This document shows, piece by piece, positions 37,372 to 45,181 of a DNA stretch of 64,000 nucleotides (position 1 is its first letter; each line of letters opens with the position of its first letter). The position numbers were made by a program, and so were the translations under genes. The notes beneath the pieces were generated by a model, which worked only from the letters and a program-made list of their open reading frames with translations, ran no database searches and was not told the origin of the DNA. The stretch is from the NCBI RefSeq assembly GCF_002127265.1, contig NZ_NFUU01000001.1, positions 496,001-560,000 of the forward strand, given 5' to 3'. The DNA comes from Hydrogenophaga sp. IBVHS1. GTDB lineage: Bacteria; Pseudomonadota; Gammaproteobacteria; Burkholderiales; Burkholderiaceae_C.

Positions 37372-37394
37372 CGACCTGATGGCATGATTTGCCC

Positions 37395-38123
37395 ATGACC
37401 ATTCTCCGTGTCGCCACCTACAACATCCACAAAGGCGTCCAGGGCCTTGGCCCGGCGCGCCGGCTGGAGATTCACAACCTGGCGCACGCGGTGGAGCAGT
37501 TCGATGCCGACATCGTCTGTCTGCAGGAAGTGCGCCGCCATCACCGCAAGCTCGAAAAGCACTTCACCCGCTGGCCCGATCTCGACCAGGCCAACTACCT
37601 GACGCCCGATGGCTACGAGTCGGTCTACCGCACCAATGCCACCACCCGCCATGGCGAACACGGCAACGCCTTGCTCTCGCGCTGGCCGGTGCTCGACAGC
37701 AAGCATTCCGACGTGTCCGACCACCGCTTCGAGCAGCGTGGCCTGCTGCACGTGCAACTCTTCATTGATGGTGTCGACGTGCATGTGGTGGTGGTGCACC
37801 TGGGACTGATCCACGCCAGTCGGGAACGCCAGGTTCAGCGGCTGGGCCATTACATCGCCACCGAGCTGCCCGAGACCGCTCCGCTGATCGTGGCGGGTGA
37901 TTTCAACGACTGGGGCGCCCAGTTGCTCAAACCCATGGCGGCGCTCGGCCTTCGCACTTTCGAGGGCATCCGCCTGCCCACTTACCCTTCGCGCCTGCCC
38001 CTGTTGCACCTGGACCGCATTTTTGTGCGTGGCCTGCGTCCGCTCTCGGCACAAGTGCCGCACGGCAAGGTGTGGTCGCGCATGTCCGATCACCTTCCAC
38101 TGATTGCCGAGCTGGAGCTGTGA
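37395..38123 (+). CDS. Endonuclease/exonuclease/phosphatase (EEP) family protein, YbhP-like
   Basis: This 242-residue EEP hydrolase has the family metal and catalytic motifs ATYNIHKG (7-14), CLQEVR (about 43-48), HLGL, AGDFNDW (about 160-166) and the terminal SDHLPL. It has no signal peptide. In E. coli the homologue ybhP sits next to clsB (ybhO), as here. It could act on a phosphodiester in lipid metabolism or on nucleic acid. A TTG two codons earlier is a less likely start. Its stop overlaps the clsB GTG. Confidence 0.85.
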   Translation: MTILRVATYNIHKGVQGLGPARRLEIHNLAHAVEQFDADIVCLQEVRRHHRKLEKHFTRWPDLDQANYLTPDGYESVYRTNATTRHGEHGNALLSRWPVLDSKHSDVSDHRFEQRGLLHVQLFIDGVDVHVVVVHLGLIHASRERQVQRLGHYIATELPETAPLIVAGDFNDWGAQLLKPMAALGLRTFEGIRLPTYPSRLPLLHLDRIFVRGLRPLSAQVPHGKVWSRMSDHLPLIAELEL

Positions 38124-39436
38124 GCACCGACCCTGCTGATCAACAGGCTCGAAGAGCCACACCCGGTGGCATGCGCGGCGGCCATCAGTTGTTGTTGCTG
38201 CAGGGCGGCGCCGAATTCTTTCCAGCCTTGGTCGATGCAATGGACGCGGCGCGCCAGGTGGTTCACCTCGAAACGTACATCTTTGAATTTGCGGGCTCGG
38301 CGCTCATGGTGGCCGAGGCACTGGAACGCGCGGCCCGCCGCGGCGTGGTGGTGCGCCTCGTGATTGATGGGGTCGGCTCACCCCGTGTGCCAGCCGAATG
38401 GCGCGAGCGCTTCGAGCGAGCGGGCGTGATGCTGTACATCTACGCGCCCCTGGGCCGCTTCGGCCTGCTGCTCCCCAGCCGTTGGCGGCGCCTGCACCGC
38501 AAGCTCTGCGTGGTGGATGGAACCGTGGGGTTTTGTGGCGGCATCAACATCATCGACGATCAGGACGACGTGGCGCTCGGTCGGCTCAGCGAGCCGCGAC
38601 TGGATTTCTGCCTGCGTGTGGCAGGTCCGCTGGTGCAGGACATGTCGGACACCATGGAGCAGCTCTGGTGGCGCCTGCGCGCGGCGAGCAAGGCGCGGCA
38701 GCGTGAGTTCAAGGCGGCATGGGACGCCCTGCGTGAGTCCCGACCGGCGGGCGATTTTTCGCGCGTGCTGCGCAAGATTGAATCGCGGGCCGGCGCACTG
38801 GGAGAGCGGGACGCCACCGGGCTCGCCGACGAATCCGGGCCAGCTCCCCTGGGTGTGGACAGCGCACGCGCCTGCCTGCTTCTGCGCGACAACGTCGGCC
38901 ACCGCCACGACATCGAACGCGCCTACCTCAAGGCCATCGGCGAGGCGCGGCACGATGTCGTGATCGCCAACGCCTATTTCATACCCGGGCGCAAGCTGCG
39001 GCGGGCCTTGATGATGGCTGCTGCGCGGGGTGTGCGGGTGCGGCTGCTGCTGCAAGGCAAGTACGAGCATTTCCTGCAGTACCGCGCGGCGCGTCCGGTG
39101 TATGCGCCGTTGCTGGAAGCCGGCATCGAGATCCACGAGTACGCCCCCAGCGCGCTGCACGCCAAGGTCGCCGTGGTCGACGATCGCTGGTCCACCGTGG
39201 GGTCCACCAACCTGGACCCGCTGTCCATGCTGCTGGCCCGCGAGGCCAACGTCATGACCAACGACCGCCGCTTTGCCAGCCTGCTGCTGGGTTATCTGGA
39301 CAGCATCATGCTCAATGCCGGACACACCCTGGACGTCAAGACACTCAGCAGCCGGCCATGGCACCAGCGACTGCTGGACCGCGTGGCCTTCGGCATCATG
39401 CGAACCACGCTCTTCCTCACCGGCCACCGATATTGA
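38120..39436 (+). CDS. clsB: Cardiolipin synthase B (phospholipase D family)
   Basis: This 438-residue protein has two HKD motifs, LHRKLCVVDG near 130-139 and LHAKVAVVDD near 346-355, and no N-terminal membrane helices, which matches ClsB rather than ClsA. It would make cardiolipin or phosphatidylglycerol by phosphatidyl transfer. The start taken is GTG 38120, overlapping the EEP stop (GTGA); an ATG at 38171 would shorten it by 17 residues. It ends in a TTGA overlap with the exonuclease gene. Confidence 0.87.
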   Translation: MSTDPADQQARRATPGGMRGGHQLLLLQGGAEFFPALVDAMDAARQVVHLETYIFEFAGSALMVAEALERAARRGVVVRLVIDGVGSPRVPAEWRERFERAGVMLYIYAPLGRFGLLLPSRWRRLHRKLCVVDGTVGFCGGINIIDDQDDVALGRLSEPRLDFCLRVAGPLVQDMSDTMEQLWWRLRAASKARQREFKAAWDALRESRPAGDFSRVLRKIESRAGALGERDATGLADESGPAPLGVDSARACLLLRDNVGHRHDIERAYLKAIGEARHDVVIANAYFIPGRKLRRALMMAAARGVRVRLLLQGKYEHFLQYRAARPVYAPLLEAGIEIHEYAPSALHAKVAVVDDRWSTVGSTNLDPLSMLLAREANVMTNDRRFASLLLGYLDSIMLNAGHTLDVKTLSSRPWHQRLLDRVAFGIMRTTLFLTGHRY

Positions 39437-40461
39437 AGCCCGACCTCATCGTCCAGCGCCCCGAGGGGCTGTATTGCCCGCCGGGAGATTTCTACATCGA
39501 TCCCTGGCGTCGTGTGGACCGGGCCGTGATCACGCATGCGCATGCCGACCACGCGCGCGTGGGGCACGCACACTACCTGGCCACTGCGGTGTCCGAAGGT
39601 TTGCTGCGCTCGCGGCTGGGATCGGACATCACCCTGCAAGGCCTGGCCTATGGCGAGGAGGTGGTGCACAACGGCGTGCGCATTTCGTTGCACCCGGCGG
39701 GCCACGTGCTGGGGTCGGCGCAGGTGCGGCTGGAGCATGAAGGCCAAGTGTGGGTGGCGAGTGGCGACTACCGGCCCACCCCCGCGGGCGCTGTGCCCGA
39801 TCACACCTGCGCACCCTTCGAGCCGGTGCGTTGCCATGTCTTCATCACCGAGTCCACGTTCGGCCTGCCCATTTACCGCTGGCGCCCCGACGCCGAACTG
39901 TTCGCGCAGATCAACCAGTGGTGGGCCGACAACGCCGCCGCCGGGCGCGCCAGCGTGCTGGTGTGCTACAGCCTGGGAAAAGCGCAGCGCATTCTGGGCG
40001 GGGTGGACCCCTCCATCGGCACCATCGTGTGCCATGGCGCCGTCGAGCCGCTCAACCGGGCTTACCGAGCGGCTGGTGTGGCGCTGCCTGAGACGGTGGC
40101 GGTCACCGAAATTGCGGACCCGGCCTTGTTGCGCCGCGCGCTGGTGCTGACGCCGGGTAGCGCGCTGGGTACGCCGTGGATTCGCCGCTTCGGCGATTTT
40201 TCCGATGCCTTTGCCAGCGGCTGGATGCAGGTGCGTGGCATGCGCCGGCGCGGCGGGCACGACCGCGGATTCGTGCTCAGCGATCATGCCGACTGGCCGG
40301 GTCTGCTCGGCGCCATCGAGGCCACTGGTGCCGAGCGCGTCGTCGTCACCCATGGCAGCGCGGTCGAACTGGTGCGACACCTGAGCGAGCAAGGCCTTCG
40401 GGCTGAAGAGTTCCACACCGAGTACGGCGACGATCAAGAAGCTCGCGCCGAAACCGCATGA
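39433..40461 (+). CDS. Ligase-associated DNA exonuclease (metallo-beta-lactamase fold)
   Basis: This 342-residue protein of the beta-lactamase/beta-CASP group has HAHADHARVG (HxHxDH, about 35-44), the ESTFG segment near 138 and SDHADW near 277. The N-terminus LIVQRPEGLYCPPGDFYIDPW is typical of exonucleases paired with ATP-dependent DNA ligases. The start is a TTG overlapping the clsB stop; no ATG or GTG exists before the conserved N-terminus. It overlaps the ligase by 4 bases, so the two are co-translated and probably act together in DNA end repair. Confidence 0.85.
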   Translation: MKPDLIVQRPEGLYCPPGDFYIDPWRRVDRAVITHAHADHARVGHAHYLATAVSEGLLRSRLGSDITLQGLAYGEEVVHNGVRISLHPAGHVLGSAQVRLEHEGQVWVASGDYRPTPAGAVPDHTCAPFEPVRCHVFITESTFGLPIYRWRPDAELFAQINQWWADNAAAGRASVLVCYSLGKAQRILGGVDPSIGTIVCHGAVEPLNRAYRAAGVALPETVAVTEIADPALLRRALVLTPGSALGTPWIRRFGDFSDAFASGWMQVRGMRRRGGHDRGFVLSDHADWPGLLGAIEATGAERVVVTHGSAVELVRHLSEQGLRAEEFHTEYGDDQEARAETA

Positions 40462-42230
40462 ACCGCTTTGCCGCGCTGTTTGCCGAGCTCGATGCCAGCA
40501 CCGCCACCAGCGCCAAGCTGGCCGCGCTGCAGCGCTACCTGGCTGAGGTGGACGATGATGATGCGGCTTGGGCGGTGTACTTTCTCTCGGGCGGCAAGCC
40601 CCGCCAGCTCATCAAGACGGCCCGTTTGCGAGCGCTGGCCACCAAAGCGGCCGGTCTTTCCGATTGGCTGTTTGAAGCTTGCTACCAGACCGTAGGCGAT
40701 CTGGCCGAAACCATCGCGCTGGTGCTGCCCGATGCGGCCGATGCTGGCGGCATGGAAGTCCCGCTGAGTCAATGGATGAACGAGCGCCTGCTGCCGCTGC
40801 GAGGTCAGGACGACGACACCGTGGCCCGCGCCCTGGAGGCCTGGTGGGGCGAGCTCAATCCTGTGGGGCGCTTCCTTCTGGTCAAACTGGTGGGTGGCGG
40901 CTTCCGGGTGGGAGTGAGCAAGCTGCTGGTGCAGCGCGCCATCGCCGCCCATGCGGGGCTCGATGCCCGCCACGTGGCCGCCCGCATGATGGGCTACACC
41001 GACAGCCAGCGCGCGCCCAGCGCGGCCATGTACCGCGCGCTCATCTCGGGTGCAGAGGCCCACGAGGCGGAGCCCAGCCAGCCGTACCCCTTTTTCCTCG
41101 CCAGCGCGCTCGATGCCGACGCCGCCGTGAACCTGCGCGCGCAGGGGGCGGTGGGGGATTGGCTTGCCGAGTGGAAGTTCGATGGCATCCGCGGTCAGAT
41201 CGTCAAGCGGGCCGGGCGGGTATGGGTGTGGTCGCGCGGCGAGGAACTGATGAGCGAGCGCTTTCCCGAGTTGCTTGCGCTGGCGCAGCGCTGGCCCGAT
41301 GGCACCGTGGTCGACGGTGAAATCCTGGTGTGGGACGGTTCCTCCGACGAGCCTCTGCTGCCCGGCAGCGAGAGACCCGGGCGACCCGCGCCGTTTGCCT
41401 TGCTGCAGCAGCGCATCGGCCGCAAGATTCTTGGCCCCAAGGTGCTGGCCGACGCGCCCGTGAGCTTCATGGCTCACGACCTGCTGGAGGCGGCGGGCGA
41501 AGACCTTCGTGGTCTGCCGCAACACCAGCGCCGTTCGCGGCTGGAGGTGTTTGCGCGTTCTGTGGATGACGTGCCAGGGCCGCGCATGTGGCTGTCGCCC
41601 GTGCTTGGAGCCGACACATGGGAGGCGCTCGCCGCGCTGCGCGTGCAGGCCCGCGAACTGGGTGTCGAAGGTCTCATGCTCAAGCACCGCGACAGCGTCT
41701 ATGGAACGGGTCGCCAGAAGCGTGCTGGCGAGGGTGGGTTAATGGCCTGGTGGAAGTGGAAGCTCGATCCGCTCACCGTGGACGGTGTGCTGATCTACGC
41801 TCAGGCCGGCCATGGCCGCCGCGCTTCGGTGTACACCGATTACACGTTTGCCGTCTGGAACCGTGCGCCCGTCGATGCGGCCGAAGCGCAAGCCGTGGTC
41901 GCGGCGATCGCGGAGCGCCGGCCGGCCGACCCCGAGGGCCTTCAACTCGTGGCCTTCACCAAGGCCTACTCGGGGCTGAGCGACGAGGAGTTCGATCGAG
42001 TCGACGCGGTGATCCGCAAGACCACACTGGAGAAGTTTGGCCCGGTGCGCAGTGTGCGGCCCACGCTGGTGTTCGAGCTGGCGTTTGAGGGGATCGCGCG
42101 CAGCGCACGCCACAAGAGTGGTGTCGCCCTGCGCTTCCCGCGCATGCAGCGTCTGCGGCCTGACAAACCGCTGCACGAGGCCGACACCCTGCAGGCCCTG
42201 GAGCGCCTGTTGTTGGCCCCTTCGGGCTGA
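40458..42230 (+). CDS. ATP-dependent DNA ligase
   Basis: This 590-residue ATP-dependent ligase has an N-terminal helical DNA-binding domain (about 1-200). The adenylation domain carries the nucleotidyl lysine K240 in EWKFDGIRGQ (motif I), DGEILVWDG (motif III), EGLMLKHRDS (motif IV) and WWKWKLDP (motif V); the OB domain is C-terminal. It is additional to the NAD-dependent LigA every bacterium carries and is paired with the exonuclease just upstream. Related operons often also hold an Lhr-type helicase and a phosphoesterase; neither follows here. Confidence 0.92.
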   Translation: MNRFAALFAELDASTATSAKLAALQRYLAEVDDDDAAWAVYFLSGGKPRQLIKTARLRALATKAAGLSDWLFEACYQTVGDLAETIALVLPDAADAGGMEVPLSQWMNERLLPLRGQDDDTVARALEAWWGELNPVGRFLLVKLVGGGFRVGVSKLLVQRAIAAHAGLDARHVAARMMGYTDSQRAPSAAMYRALISGAEAHEAEPSQPYPFFLASALDADAAVNLRAQGAVGDWLAEWKFDGIRGQIVKRAGRVWVWSRGEELMSERFPELLALAQRWPDGTVVDGEILVWDGSSDEPLLPGSERPGRPAPFALLQQRIGRKILGPKVLADAPVSFMAHDLLEAAGEDLRGLPQHQRRSRLEVFARSVDDVPGPRMWLSPVLGADTWEALAALRVQARELGVEGLMLKHRDSVYGTGRQKRAGEGGLMAWWKWKLDPLTVDGVLIYAQAGHGRRASVYTDYTFAVWNRAPVDAAEAQAVVAAIAERRPADPEGLQLVAFTKAYSGLSDEEFDRVDAVIRKTTLEKFGPVRSVRPTLVFELAFEGIARSARHKSGVALRFPRMQRLRPDKPLHEADTLQALERLLLAPSG

Positions 42231-42259: not shown

Positions 42260-42299
42260 CCCATGCGGTGTGGTCATAAGTCCGGTGTTAGCATGCGCC

Positions 42300-43028
42300 A
42301 TGCTGATGAAAGCCGAATCCGACATGACCCCCGCCGCCCCTTCAGACGACGACATCGGCGTGCCCGTTTCTGTGAAGATCCGGGAGCGCGTCAAGGCCGC
42401 TCGCAAGCGTTTTCACTCCAACGACAACATCGCCGAATTCATCCAGCCGGGTGAGCTCGACCAGTTGCTGGAGGAAGTGACCGTGCACATGCAGGGCGTG
42501 CTCGATGCCATGGTGATCGACACCGAGAACGACCACAACACCGGCGACACCGCGCGCCGCGTGGCCAAGATGTACCTCAAGGAAGTGTTCAACGGCCGCT
42601 ACGTGCACGGCCCGAGCGTCACCGAGTTCCCCAATGCCGAGCACCTGAACGAGCTCATGATCGTGGGCCCGATCACCGTGCGCAGCGCGTGTAGCCACCA
42701 CTTCTGTCCTGTCATTGGCCGCATCTGGATCGGCGTCATGCCCAACGAGCACACCAACGTGATCGGCTTGTCCAAGTACGCACGCATGGCCGAGTGGATC
42801 ATGGGCCGGCCGCAGATCCAGGAAGAAGCGGTGGTGCAGCTGGCCGACCTGATCCAGGAAAAAACCCAGCCCGATGGCCTGGCCATCGTGATGGAGGCCA
42901 GCCACTACTGCATGGCCTGGCGAGGTGTGAAGGACATGGACAGCAAGATGATCAATTCGGTCATGCGCGGCGTGTTCCTCAAGGACTCCAACCTCCGGCG
43001 AGAATTCCTCGCGCTCATTCCCCGCTGA
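42300..43028 (+). CDS. folE: GTP cyclohydrolase I (type IA)
   Basis: This is the first enzyme of folate synthesis, GTP to 7,8-dihydroneopterin triphosphate. Zinc ligands lie in ACSHHFCP (two cysteines and a histidine), with active-site NDHNTGDTARR and ASHYCMAWRGVKD. Length is 242 residues from ATG 42300, but ATGs at 42306 and 42324 are equally possible; the first 35 residues are not conserved and none has a strong ribosome site. It is followed after 25 bases by a BLUF protein. Confidence 0.94.
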   Translation: MLMKAESDMTPAAPSDDDIGVPVSVKIRERVKAARKRFHSNDNIAEFIQPGELDQLLEEVTVHMQGVLDAMVIDTENDHNTGDTARRVAKMYLKEVFNGRYVHGPSVTEFPNAEHLNELMIVGPITVRSACSHHFCPVIGRIWIGVMPNEHTNVIGLSKYARMAEWIMGRPQIQEEAVVQLADLIQEKTQPDGLAIVMEASHYCMAWRGVKDMDSKMINSVMRGVFLKDSNLRREFLALIPR

Positions 43029-43053: not shown

Positions 43054-43476
43054 ATGCTTGTACGCCTGCTCTACGTCAGTCGCGCGGTCGACAAAGACGC
43101 CAAGGCCATTGAATCCATCCTGGAAGCCTCGCGCTCGCACAACATGGGCAACGGCATCACCGGTGTGCTGTGTTACGGCGGTGGCGTGTTCCTGCAAGCC
43201 ATCGAAGGTGGCCGCACTGCCGTCAACACGCTCTACAACCACATCGTGGCCGACCCTCGCCATGCGGGCGTGGAGCTGCTGCACTACGAAGAAATTTCAG
43301 AGCGCCGGTTTGGTGGCTGGACCATGGGCCAGGTGAACCTCTCCAAGCTCAACACGTCCATCGTGCTGAAGTATTCCGAGCGACCTGAGTTCGATCCCTA
43401 TGCCGTTTCGGGCAAGGTTTCGCTGGCGTTGCTCGAAGAGCTGATGGCCACGGCCAGCATCATCGGTCGCGCCTGA
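43054..43476 (+). CDS. BLUF-domain blue-light sensor protein
   Basis: This 140-residue protein is a single BLUF domain with a short helical C-terminus. The photocycle residues are all present at PixD-like spacing: Tyr7 (LLYVSRA), Asn30, Gln48 (VFLQAIEG), Trp89 and Met91 (GGWTMG). Such short proteins bind FAD non-covalently and signal by contact with a partner, as no output domain is attached. It lies between folE and a DUF429 gene, 25 and 8 bases away, so all three are probably co-transcribed. The target is unknown. Confidence 0.9.
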   Translation: MLVRLLYVSRAVDKDAKAIESILEASRSHNMGNGITGVLCYGGGVFLQAIEGGRTAVNTLYNHIVADPRHAGVELLHYEEISERRFGGWTMGQVNLSKLNTSIVLKYSERPEFDPYAVSGKVSLALLEELMATASIIGRA

Positions 43477-43484
43477 GCGGCGAC

Positions 43485-44318
43485 GTGAATCCGCTTCTGC
43501 TCGGGTGCGATTTCACCAGCGCACCGAGCCGCCGAAAACCCATCACGCTGGCCGTAGGCCATGTCGATCGGGGCCGCGTCTGGCTCGACGCCGTGGAGCG
43601 GTTTGAAACGCTCGAAGCCTGGAGCCAGCGCCTGGCCGCTCCGGGTGAATGGGTCGGCGGCTTCGATCTTCCCTTCGGACTTCCGCGTGAACTCGTCACC
43701 ACGCTGGGCTGGCCCACCGAATGGGCCGCCTGCATGGCTCACTACGCTGCGATGTCACGCCCCGATATTCGCGACGCCTTCTCGGCGTTTTGCCATGCGC
43801 GGCCCGTGGGTGGCAAGTTCGCCCACCGCGCCACCGACGGCCCGGCCGGCTCCAGCCCGAGCATGAAATGGGTCAACCCACCGGTGGCCTACATGCTGCA
43901 CGCCGGTGTACCGCGGCTCATGGCCGCCGGCGTGACGCTGCCTGGCCTGTGGCCCGGCGACGGCAAGCGCGTGGGACTGGAGGCGTATCCGGGCCTTCTC
44001 GCGCGCAGTGTGCTGGGCACGGTTTCGTACAAGAGCGACGATAGAGCCCGCCAGACGCCAGATCGCCTGATCGCACGCAAGACGCTGATCAATGCACTGG
44101 AGAACGGCCAGGCGCCGCTGCTGGTCGCCTGTGGCTTGCGCCTGCGTCTCACCCACGGCCAGCGCGATGCGCTCGCCGACGACGCCAGCGGCGACAGCCT
44201 GGACGCCGTGCTGTGCCTGCTGCAGGCGGCGTGGGCACGGCATCAACACGGTGCGGGGCATCCGCAATGGGGCTTGCCGGCGTTCGATCCGCTGGAGGGC
44301 TGGATCGTCAGCGCCTGA
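43485..44318 (+). CDS. DUF429 domain protein
   Basis: This 277-residue protein starts at a GTG (VNPLLLGCDF) 8 bases after the BLUF stop. It has DUF429 features: an N-terminal GCDFTSAPS strand with an acidic residue, GGFDLPFGLP, EAYPGLLA and the C-terminal DDASGDSLDAVLCLLQAAW segment. The pattern is that of an RNase H-like fold with spaced acidic residues, but no activity is established. Co-directional with folE and the BLUF gene. Confidence 0.78.
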   Translation: MNPLLLGCDFTSAPSRRKPITLAVGHVDRGRVWLDAVERFETLEAWSQRLAAPGEWVGGFDLPFGLPRELVTTLGWPTEWAACMAHYAAMSRPDIRDAFSAFCHARPVGGKFAHRATDGPAGSSPSMKWVNPPVAYMLHAGVPRLMAAGVTLPGLWPGDGKRVGLEAYPGLLARSVLGTVSYKSDDRARQTPDRLIARKTLINALENGQAPLLVACGLRLRLTHGQRDALADDASGDSLDAVLCLLQAAWARHQHGAGHPQWGLPAFDPLEGWIVSA

Positions 44319-44364: not shown

Positions 44365-44394
44365 TCGCGGGTCCGGCCAGCGTGCCGGACAACA

Positions 44395-44582
44395 GCGTTC
44401 TCAGGGCGGGGTGAGATTCCCCACCGGCGGTGATGGTGGCGTGGCGACACGACCACACGAGTGCCGCGAGCGCCCATGTGCCGATTCATTTCGGTGCCTG
44501 GGGTCAGCAGACCCGGTGAGATCCCGGGACCGACGGTAAGGTGTCTGGCAACAGGCTCCAGAGTCCGGATAAAAGAGAGCGC
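44395..44582 (+). promoter_or_regulatory. FMN riboswitch (RFN element)
   Basis: P1 forms between GCGTTCTC (44395-44402) and GAGAGCGC (44575-44582). The conserved core is present: AGGGCGGGGTGAGATTCCCC then ACCGGCGGT near the 5' end, CAGCAGACCCGGTGAGATCC with GACCGACGGT in the middle, and AGTCCGGAT with AAAGAGAG at the 3' end. It binds FMN and should shut off ribH when flavin is plentiful. Downstream GC-rich inverted repeats and a T6 run (44645-44650) could act as the terminator; I could not settle between terminator and ribosome-site masking. Confidence 0.93.
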
Positions 44583-44674
44583 GAGCCGTTTGCCCCGGTG
44601 GTGCTTGCGCGCCGCCGGCTGGCATTCGCGCTTGTGCGCCCTGATTTTTTGGCCAATCCCGACTCGAGGACACC

Positions 44675-45181
44675 ATGAATCAGTCAGAAGCTTCCCTTAC
44701 TCCTCCCACCGTTCAACTGCCGGGCGATCTGCGCTTTGCCTTCGTCGAAGCGTCCTGGCACGCCGATATCGTGCACCAGGCGCGCGACGCCTTTTTTGCA
44801 GAAATGGCTCGAAACGGCTTCGACACCCATGCCATCGACGTGTTCGACGTACCCGGTGCGTTCGAGATCCCGCTGCACGCGCAGCGGCTGGCCCGTTCGG
44901 GCCGCTACGCCGCCGTGGTCGGCAGCGCATTGGTGGTCGACGGCGGCATCTACCGCCACGACTTCGTTTCGCAGACGGTGGTGCAGGCGCTGATGGACGT
45001 GCAGCTCGGTACCGGCGTGCCCATGATCTCGGCCGTGCTCACACCGCACCACTTTCACGAGCACGCCGAGCACCGCAAGTACTTCCTGCGGCACTTTGCC
45101 GTGAAGGGCACCGAAGCCGCGCAGGCCTGCCTGCAGACCGTGGCCGGGCTGCGGCGGCTCGACGAGCGCCTGAGCGCCTGA
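44675..45181 (+). CDS. ribH: 6,7-dimethyl-8-ribityllumazine synthase, RibH2 type
   Basis: This 168-residue lumazine synthase condenses ribitylaminouracil with dihydroxybutanone phosphate to the riboflavin precursor. Instead of the common type I GAVIRGETPHFDY segment it has VVDGGIYRHDFVSQTV (about 88-103) and SAVLTPHHFHEH, resembling the riboswitch-controlled RibH2 paralogues known from Brucella and rhizobia. The FMN riboswitch 92 bases upstream supports this. No ribB or ribE gene is adjacent, so a second, type I ribH in the main rib operon elsewhere is expected. Confidence 0.9.
   Translation: MNQSEASLTPPTVQLPGDLRFAFVEASWHADIVHQARDAFFAEMARNGFDTHAIDVFDVPGAFEIPLHAQRLARSGRYAAVVGSALVVDGGIYRHDFVSQTVVQALMDVQLGTGVPMISAVLTPHHFHEHAEHRKYFLRHFAVKGTEAAQACLQTVAGLRRLDERLSA

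Follow-up and report, generated by a model that had tools for sequence, protein, structure and literature searches.

What would the closest described systems lead one to expect of a blue-light receptor that carries no output domain? In crystals, PixD, a BLUF protein of this kind, forms two pentameric rings stacked on one another, and its partner PixE is released after excitation (PMC5899715). As far as the accessible text of that source goes, the BLUF partners named there, PpsR, BluR and PixE, are regulators and not metabolic enzymes. BlsA of Acinetobacter and BluF of Escherichia coli likewise act on separate partners, Fur (PMC5955987) and BluR (PMC9758184, PMC5899715), respectively; in its accessible parts, the literature cited here for these two proteins yielded no link to folE. 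Blue light and folE do meet in Pseudomonas, where folE is light-induced via LOV/LitR: in the class II LitR-short LOV system of P. mendocina and P. putida, a blue-light photoreceptor without output domain is coupled to folE expression (PMC9758184). On the side of the enzyme, human GTP cyclohydrolase I (GCH1) is a D5 decamer flanked on its fivefold axes by two pentamers of GFRP, which responds to BH4 and phenylalanine and not to light (PMC7750480).

The locus described here lies in a 64,000-nucleotide stretch of the Hydrogenophaga sp. IBVHS1 genome (the window), whose forward strand carries folE, a BLUF gene, a DUF429-like gene, an FMN riboswitch and ribH in this order. The BLUF gene (43054-43476) encodes 140 residues, of which residues 2-92 match the Pfam BLUF profile (PF04940; 102.7 bits against a cut-off of 25, E 1.2e-29), the sole such match found in a profile search of its genome. 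Pfam recognises no second domain, in agreement with the first-pass annotation, which had described a receptor without output domain. The nearest solved structures are PixD-type BLUFs, Tll0078 (E 9.7e-23, residues 2-131) and Slr1694 (E 4.9e-18, residues 2-125), and the phmmer alignment to Tll0078 extends to residue 131, into the C-terminal extension. With these relatives the protein shares the absence of an output domain and the photocycle residues: Tyr7, Asn30, Gln48, Trp89 and Met91 are all in place, as had been claimed, but the PixD spacing claimed along with them is not exact, the alignment to PixD leaving one residue fewer between the tyrosine and the asparagine. It also departs from PixD in the conservation of its own tail and in having folE, not a response regulator gene, as its neighbour. 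The sequence thus supports a putative short BLUF photoreceptor with a complete set of photocycle residues; taken alone, the protein is an unremarkable representative of a family already known.

Among 196 distinct BLUF proteins encoded beside folE, Y7, N30, Q48 and W89 are kept in all 196 and M91 in 195, the exception being L137 with a leucine. The C-terminal tail of these linked proteins (residues 99-139, 43348-43470) is conserved as strongly as their core (residues 1-98), with mean majority-residue frequencies of 0.82 and 0.77. The corresponding values in 29 unlinked short BLUFs, a set without identical sequences and limited to proteins below 260 residues, are 0.26 and 0.51; as the unlinked proteins are more diverse overall, part of the difference in the tail reflects divergence. 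One tail pattern recurs in 149 of the 196 linked proteins and in a single one of the 29 unlinked, L253, the orthologue from genome G684.

In the window the gene lies 25 nt downstream of folE. The same arrangement, with folE at most 150 nt upstream, is seen in 80 of 80 family loci chosen on BLUF (L018-L097, picked by best BLUF hits and mostly one per genus). Of 47 additional family genomes with a BLUF match of E 1e-32 or better, 46 show it too, judged by coordinates, the exception being G117, in which folE and BLUF are both fragmented; these 47 come from 51 genomes, of which the remaining four (G016, G083, G101 and G112) have weak BLUF hits only. A set of named loci, the best 80 of 558, spans Hydrogenophaga, Acidovorax, Tepidimonas, Malikia, Rhodoferax, Variovorax and others and holds the pair in every case, folE being broken in L178 and matched only partially in L157; this set overlaps the fetched family set, so that the two counts are not additive. 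Overall, BLUF is matched in 263 of 299 family genomes and in none of the other 36, and folE was examined in 132 of the 263. In 211 loci, with some genomes counted twice, BLUF starts a median of 5 nt after the folE stop; the values run from -1 to 91 nt, apart from L178, with its broken folE, at 243 nt. None of these loci has the two genes fused.

The pair extends beyond the family. A search of 200 genomes of the order gave 27 high-scoring orthologues in 11 other families (at least 158 bits; hits below 130 bits left out), and 26 of them stand beside folE; in the exception, G684, folE lies near one contig end and BLUF near the end of another contig. Among 369 genomes of the class, three of three BLUFs outside the order that score at least 198 bits adjoin folE, while none of 25 loci with lower-scoring BLUFs has folE within about 1.5 kb on each side, a range limited in some by a contig end. 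Similarly, a search of the phylum gave 24 new BLUF loci, with folE only in the three from the family and in none of the other 21 within about 1.5 kb, again limited in some by a contig end. No regular third gene accompanies the pair outside the family among the gene clusters listed for loci reaching about 1.5 kb each way; one transporter-like and one GGDEF-like gene occur near it, once each. Throughout, FolE comes first and BLUF second while other neighbours change. Among the open-access matches listed in our literature search, we found no report of a folE-BLUF unit; within that scope, the link is apparently unreported.

The upstream gene (42300-43028) encodes GTP cyclohydrolase I (PF01227; 145.8 bits against a cut-off of 27, E 1.2e-42). 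We moved its start to the ATG at 42300 in preference to the GTG at 42270, because relatives have an in-frame ATG at that place. With 148.3 bits the protein stays below the cut-off of 181.6 for the NCBI equivalog TIGR00063, which marks it as a divergent FolE. The SACSHH and HxCM motifs are nevertheless present in at least 97% of 130 linked FolE proteins; we take CxHH and HxC to be the metal and catalytic motifs of the enzyme. FolE has a single match in the genome of the window, and matches in 65 of 70 genomes searched, in 59 of these as a single copy; FolE2 (PF02649) has no match in the window's genome and is absent from 42 of 50 genomes, this one included. A single FolE without FolE2 makes it likely that the window's folE encodes the housekeeping GTP cyclohydrolase I. 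As folE is kept in genomes without BLUF, the enzyme evidently works without it, and since the FolE columns of linked and unlinked genomes do not differ except for one (V187), FolE shows no surface that is evidently reserved for BLUF. In a FolE tree of 157 rows, made by a quick method, with many weak branches and with identical sequences and FolE proteins below 180 residues dropped, the unlinked rows (23, including three repeats and some second folE copies) are scattered among the linked ones; the linked state takes 13-14 changes, of which at least five are forced by well-supported branches. This fits an old pairing with repeated loss of BLUF, and gains are also compatible with the tree.

The further surroundings are less constant. 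BLUF is followed after 8 nt, as first stated, by a gene for 277 residues (43485-44318), labelled DUF429 in the first-pass annotation. This label, which we take to mean PF04250, finds no backing in profile searches, as the protein has no match in Pfam up to E 10 or in NCBIfam up to E 1. Its AlphaFold2 model (mean pLDDT 92.1) has a RuvC/RNase H-like fold, matching RuvC with Z 9.7 over 150 aligned residues at an rmsd of 3.5 (matches below Z 8 were disregarded), and the best Foldseek E is 0.034; the label is thereby plausible by fold, but a shared fold alone gives no membership, and we call the protein DUF429-like. The flavin riboswitch announced farther downstream is indeed there, an FMN riboswitch (RF00050, 86.6 bits, gathering 66.2) at 44393-44584, with ribH, a second lumazine synthase gene, behind it (44675-45181; NF009084, 1.6e-72); the other of the two lumazine synthase copies of the genome is at C1:2339185. 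We do not count the riboswitch and ribH as part of the folE-BLUF unit, since ribH lies close by in no more than a part of the Hydrogenophaga-type loci and this neighbourhood is therefore local. Before folE, 37389-42230 holds genes for proteins which we presume to be endonuclease/phosphatase-, cardiolipin-synthase- and exonuclease-like, and for an ATP-dependent DNA ligase recognised by Pfam; the exonuclease-like and ligase genes are near folE in only some relatives. Among eight window proteins (FolE, BLUF and six neighbours) Pfam gives no match to MerR or LOV/PAS, and there is one AraC-type gene.

Counted over the 131 linked loci, a set restricted to those holding both folE and BLUF, the next commonest same-strand gene cluster near the pair is found in 53. 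A cluster present in 130 loci proved to consist of antisense ORFs overlapping the folE-BLUF pair and was rejected as a neighbour gene. A protein of about 293 residues, transporter-like as judged from its sequence by eye, is encoded near the pair in 28 of the 131 loci; its gene is absent from the gap between BLUF and the DUF429-like gene in the window, lies between these two genes in L035-L040, L069-L083 and others, and directly follows folE in three genomes without BLUF (L292, L293 and L301).

The conserved neighbour of BLUF is thus folE and not the DUF429-like gene. In many Burkholderiales-type bacteria the order folE-then-BLUF suggests light control of folate or pterin synthesis, and our leading reading, which we hold tentatively and at slightly less than even chances, is that the two genes form a unit placing this synthesis under blue-light control, likeliest by the docking of one ring on another. 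The BLUF protein would bind FAD and switch with blue light as PixD does, and, being made together with FolE, would report to FolE itself: the D5 FolE decamer would offer its faces to a pentameric BLUF ring, whose docking would shift the activity of the enzyme, much as GFRP pentamers do in mammals. As the gene for a PixD-like protein all but abuts that of the only FolE in the genome, direct docking is the most economical reading, and we infer direct binding on these grounds. In the specific form of a PixD-like ring gating pterin and folate synthesis on the FolE decamer, as an analogue of GFRP that is driven by light and widespread among Burkholderiales, the proposal is a doubtful one. The benefit would likely lie in the supply of reduced folate in the light, for example for the folate antenna of photolyase. 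Folate serves as such an antenna, and the genome has one photolyase match. The likeness to GFRP (PMC7750480), in that a small protein would form a ring on a D5 FolE decamer, is proposed only; GFRP does not appear by name among the 22 sequence matches of this BLUF listed up to E 0.001. Counting against an action on FolE are the nature of the BLUF partners named in PMC5899715, which are regulators, and the lack of any BLUF match in 36 of 299 family genomes; moreover, a tight operon can reflect co-expression only. Covariation between FolE and BLUF does not exceed that of control pairs with two neighbours, at a low power given by effectively 41 sequences; the highest scores between proteins in this weak test, with the same effective 41 sequences, are those of FolE with the DUF429-like protein. 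An AlphaFold2 model of the read-through chain FolE-stop-BLUF has low confidence (mean pLDDT 41, pTM 0.33) and is informative neither way.

Which other partners or histories could explain the locus? The first-pass annotation had seen folE beside BLUF, rightly, yet chose the DUF429 protein as the natural partner for light-dependent binding, and had named conservation of the BLUF-DUF429 pair as a check on this choice. The gene is common, being found in 235 of 299 family genomes, and it follows BLUF within 150 nt in 32 of the 80 loci; its linkage is loose, however, since in 30 it stands 151-1500 nt away, often with a gene between, in 2 it is farther off and in 16 it is missing from the locus. Conversely, in genomes with a weak BLUF hit or none, 20 loci were selected by their DUF429-like gene (L098-L117), and in 19 of them it stood without BLUF. 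In G007, G091, G119 and G133 BLUF adjoins folE, and the DUF429-like gene lies either on a separate contig or at a distance of more than 1 Mb; the 27 loci of the order outside the family showed no such gene in the roughly 1.5 kb around BLUF. On these neighbourhood counts we reject the RuvC-fold protein as the light-dependent partner, an idea that is now highly improbable. The same looseness bears on the view that BLUF simply rides along with the folE promoter, for dosage or by history, with a partner and an output unrelated to pterins. FolE being equally conserved with and without BLUF, the lack of FolE-BLUF covariation in a test of low power, and the scatter of BLUF-less folE over the FolE tree all accord with this view, but hitchhiking would be expected to break as the link to the DUF429-like gene does, whereas the adjacency of folE and BLUF is kept in 11 other families, in whose short loci the other neighbours known from the family were not found. 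We regard hitchhiking of this kind as improbable.

The chief rival to direct docking is a transcriptional loop, in which the target of BLUF would be a transcription factor whose gene lies elsewhere, and BLUF would thereby control the folE-BLUF promoter, as an autoregulated light switch in the manner of BluF/BluR and BlsA/Fur. Known BLUFs do act on regulators (PMC5899715, PMC5955987), and in Pseudomonas light acts on folE at the level of transcription (PMC9758184), albeit with a LOV protein in place of a BLUF, with the MerR-type PmlR2/PplR and in a folM-folE-folX operon, as far as described in the accessible text of the same source. The promoter region is suggestive as well. An extended -10 promoter-like element, TGTTAGCAT (42286-42294), ends 5 nt before the folE ATG, and 119 of 143 distinct folE upstream regions of close relatives (the window at 42286-42302 and folE loci L018-L093 and L138-L217) contain TGnTAnnnT with an in-frame ATG 3-9 nt behind it, where shuffling predicts 0.2; the spacing is 5-7 nt in 113 of the 119. 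Its position directly before the ATG suggests a leaderless folE mRNA in the clade of close relatives, so that the message of the window's clade is perhaps leaderless. As close relatives show no clear conserved -35, the element would fit an activator-dependent promoter. Yet none of 25 regions from more distant members of the family has the pattern, and of 30 from outside the family 3 have it and 27 lack it, while the pair is kept; it also precedes 6 of 18 folE genes without BLUF. Nor does a regulator-like gene stand regularly beside the pair: among clusters present in at least 8 of the 131 loci, judged by eye, one, found in 9 loci, resembles a GGDEF protein. A loop through a distant transcription factor therefore appears rather unlikely to us, though it is the alternative to be reckoned with first.

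What would blue-light control of pterin and folate synthesis by the folE-BLUF unit mean? To our knowledge, no partner is known for many of the short BLUF proteins, and the constant pairing with folE provides a concrete, testable partner for one of them. Should the two proteins bind directly, they would amount to a naturally occurring enzyme switched by light, useful in optogenetics. For the bacteria themselves, the pair points to a supply of folate and pterins that is governed by light even though they are non-photosynthetic, and taken together with the LOV/LitR control of folE in Pseudomonas it suggests that a tie between blue light and folate synthesis arose more than once.
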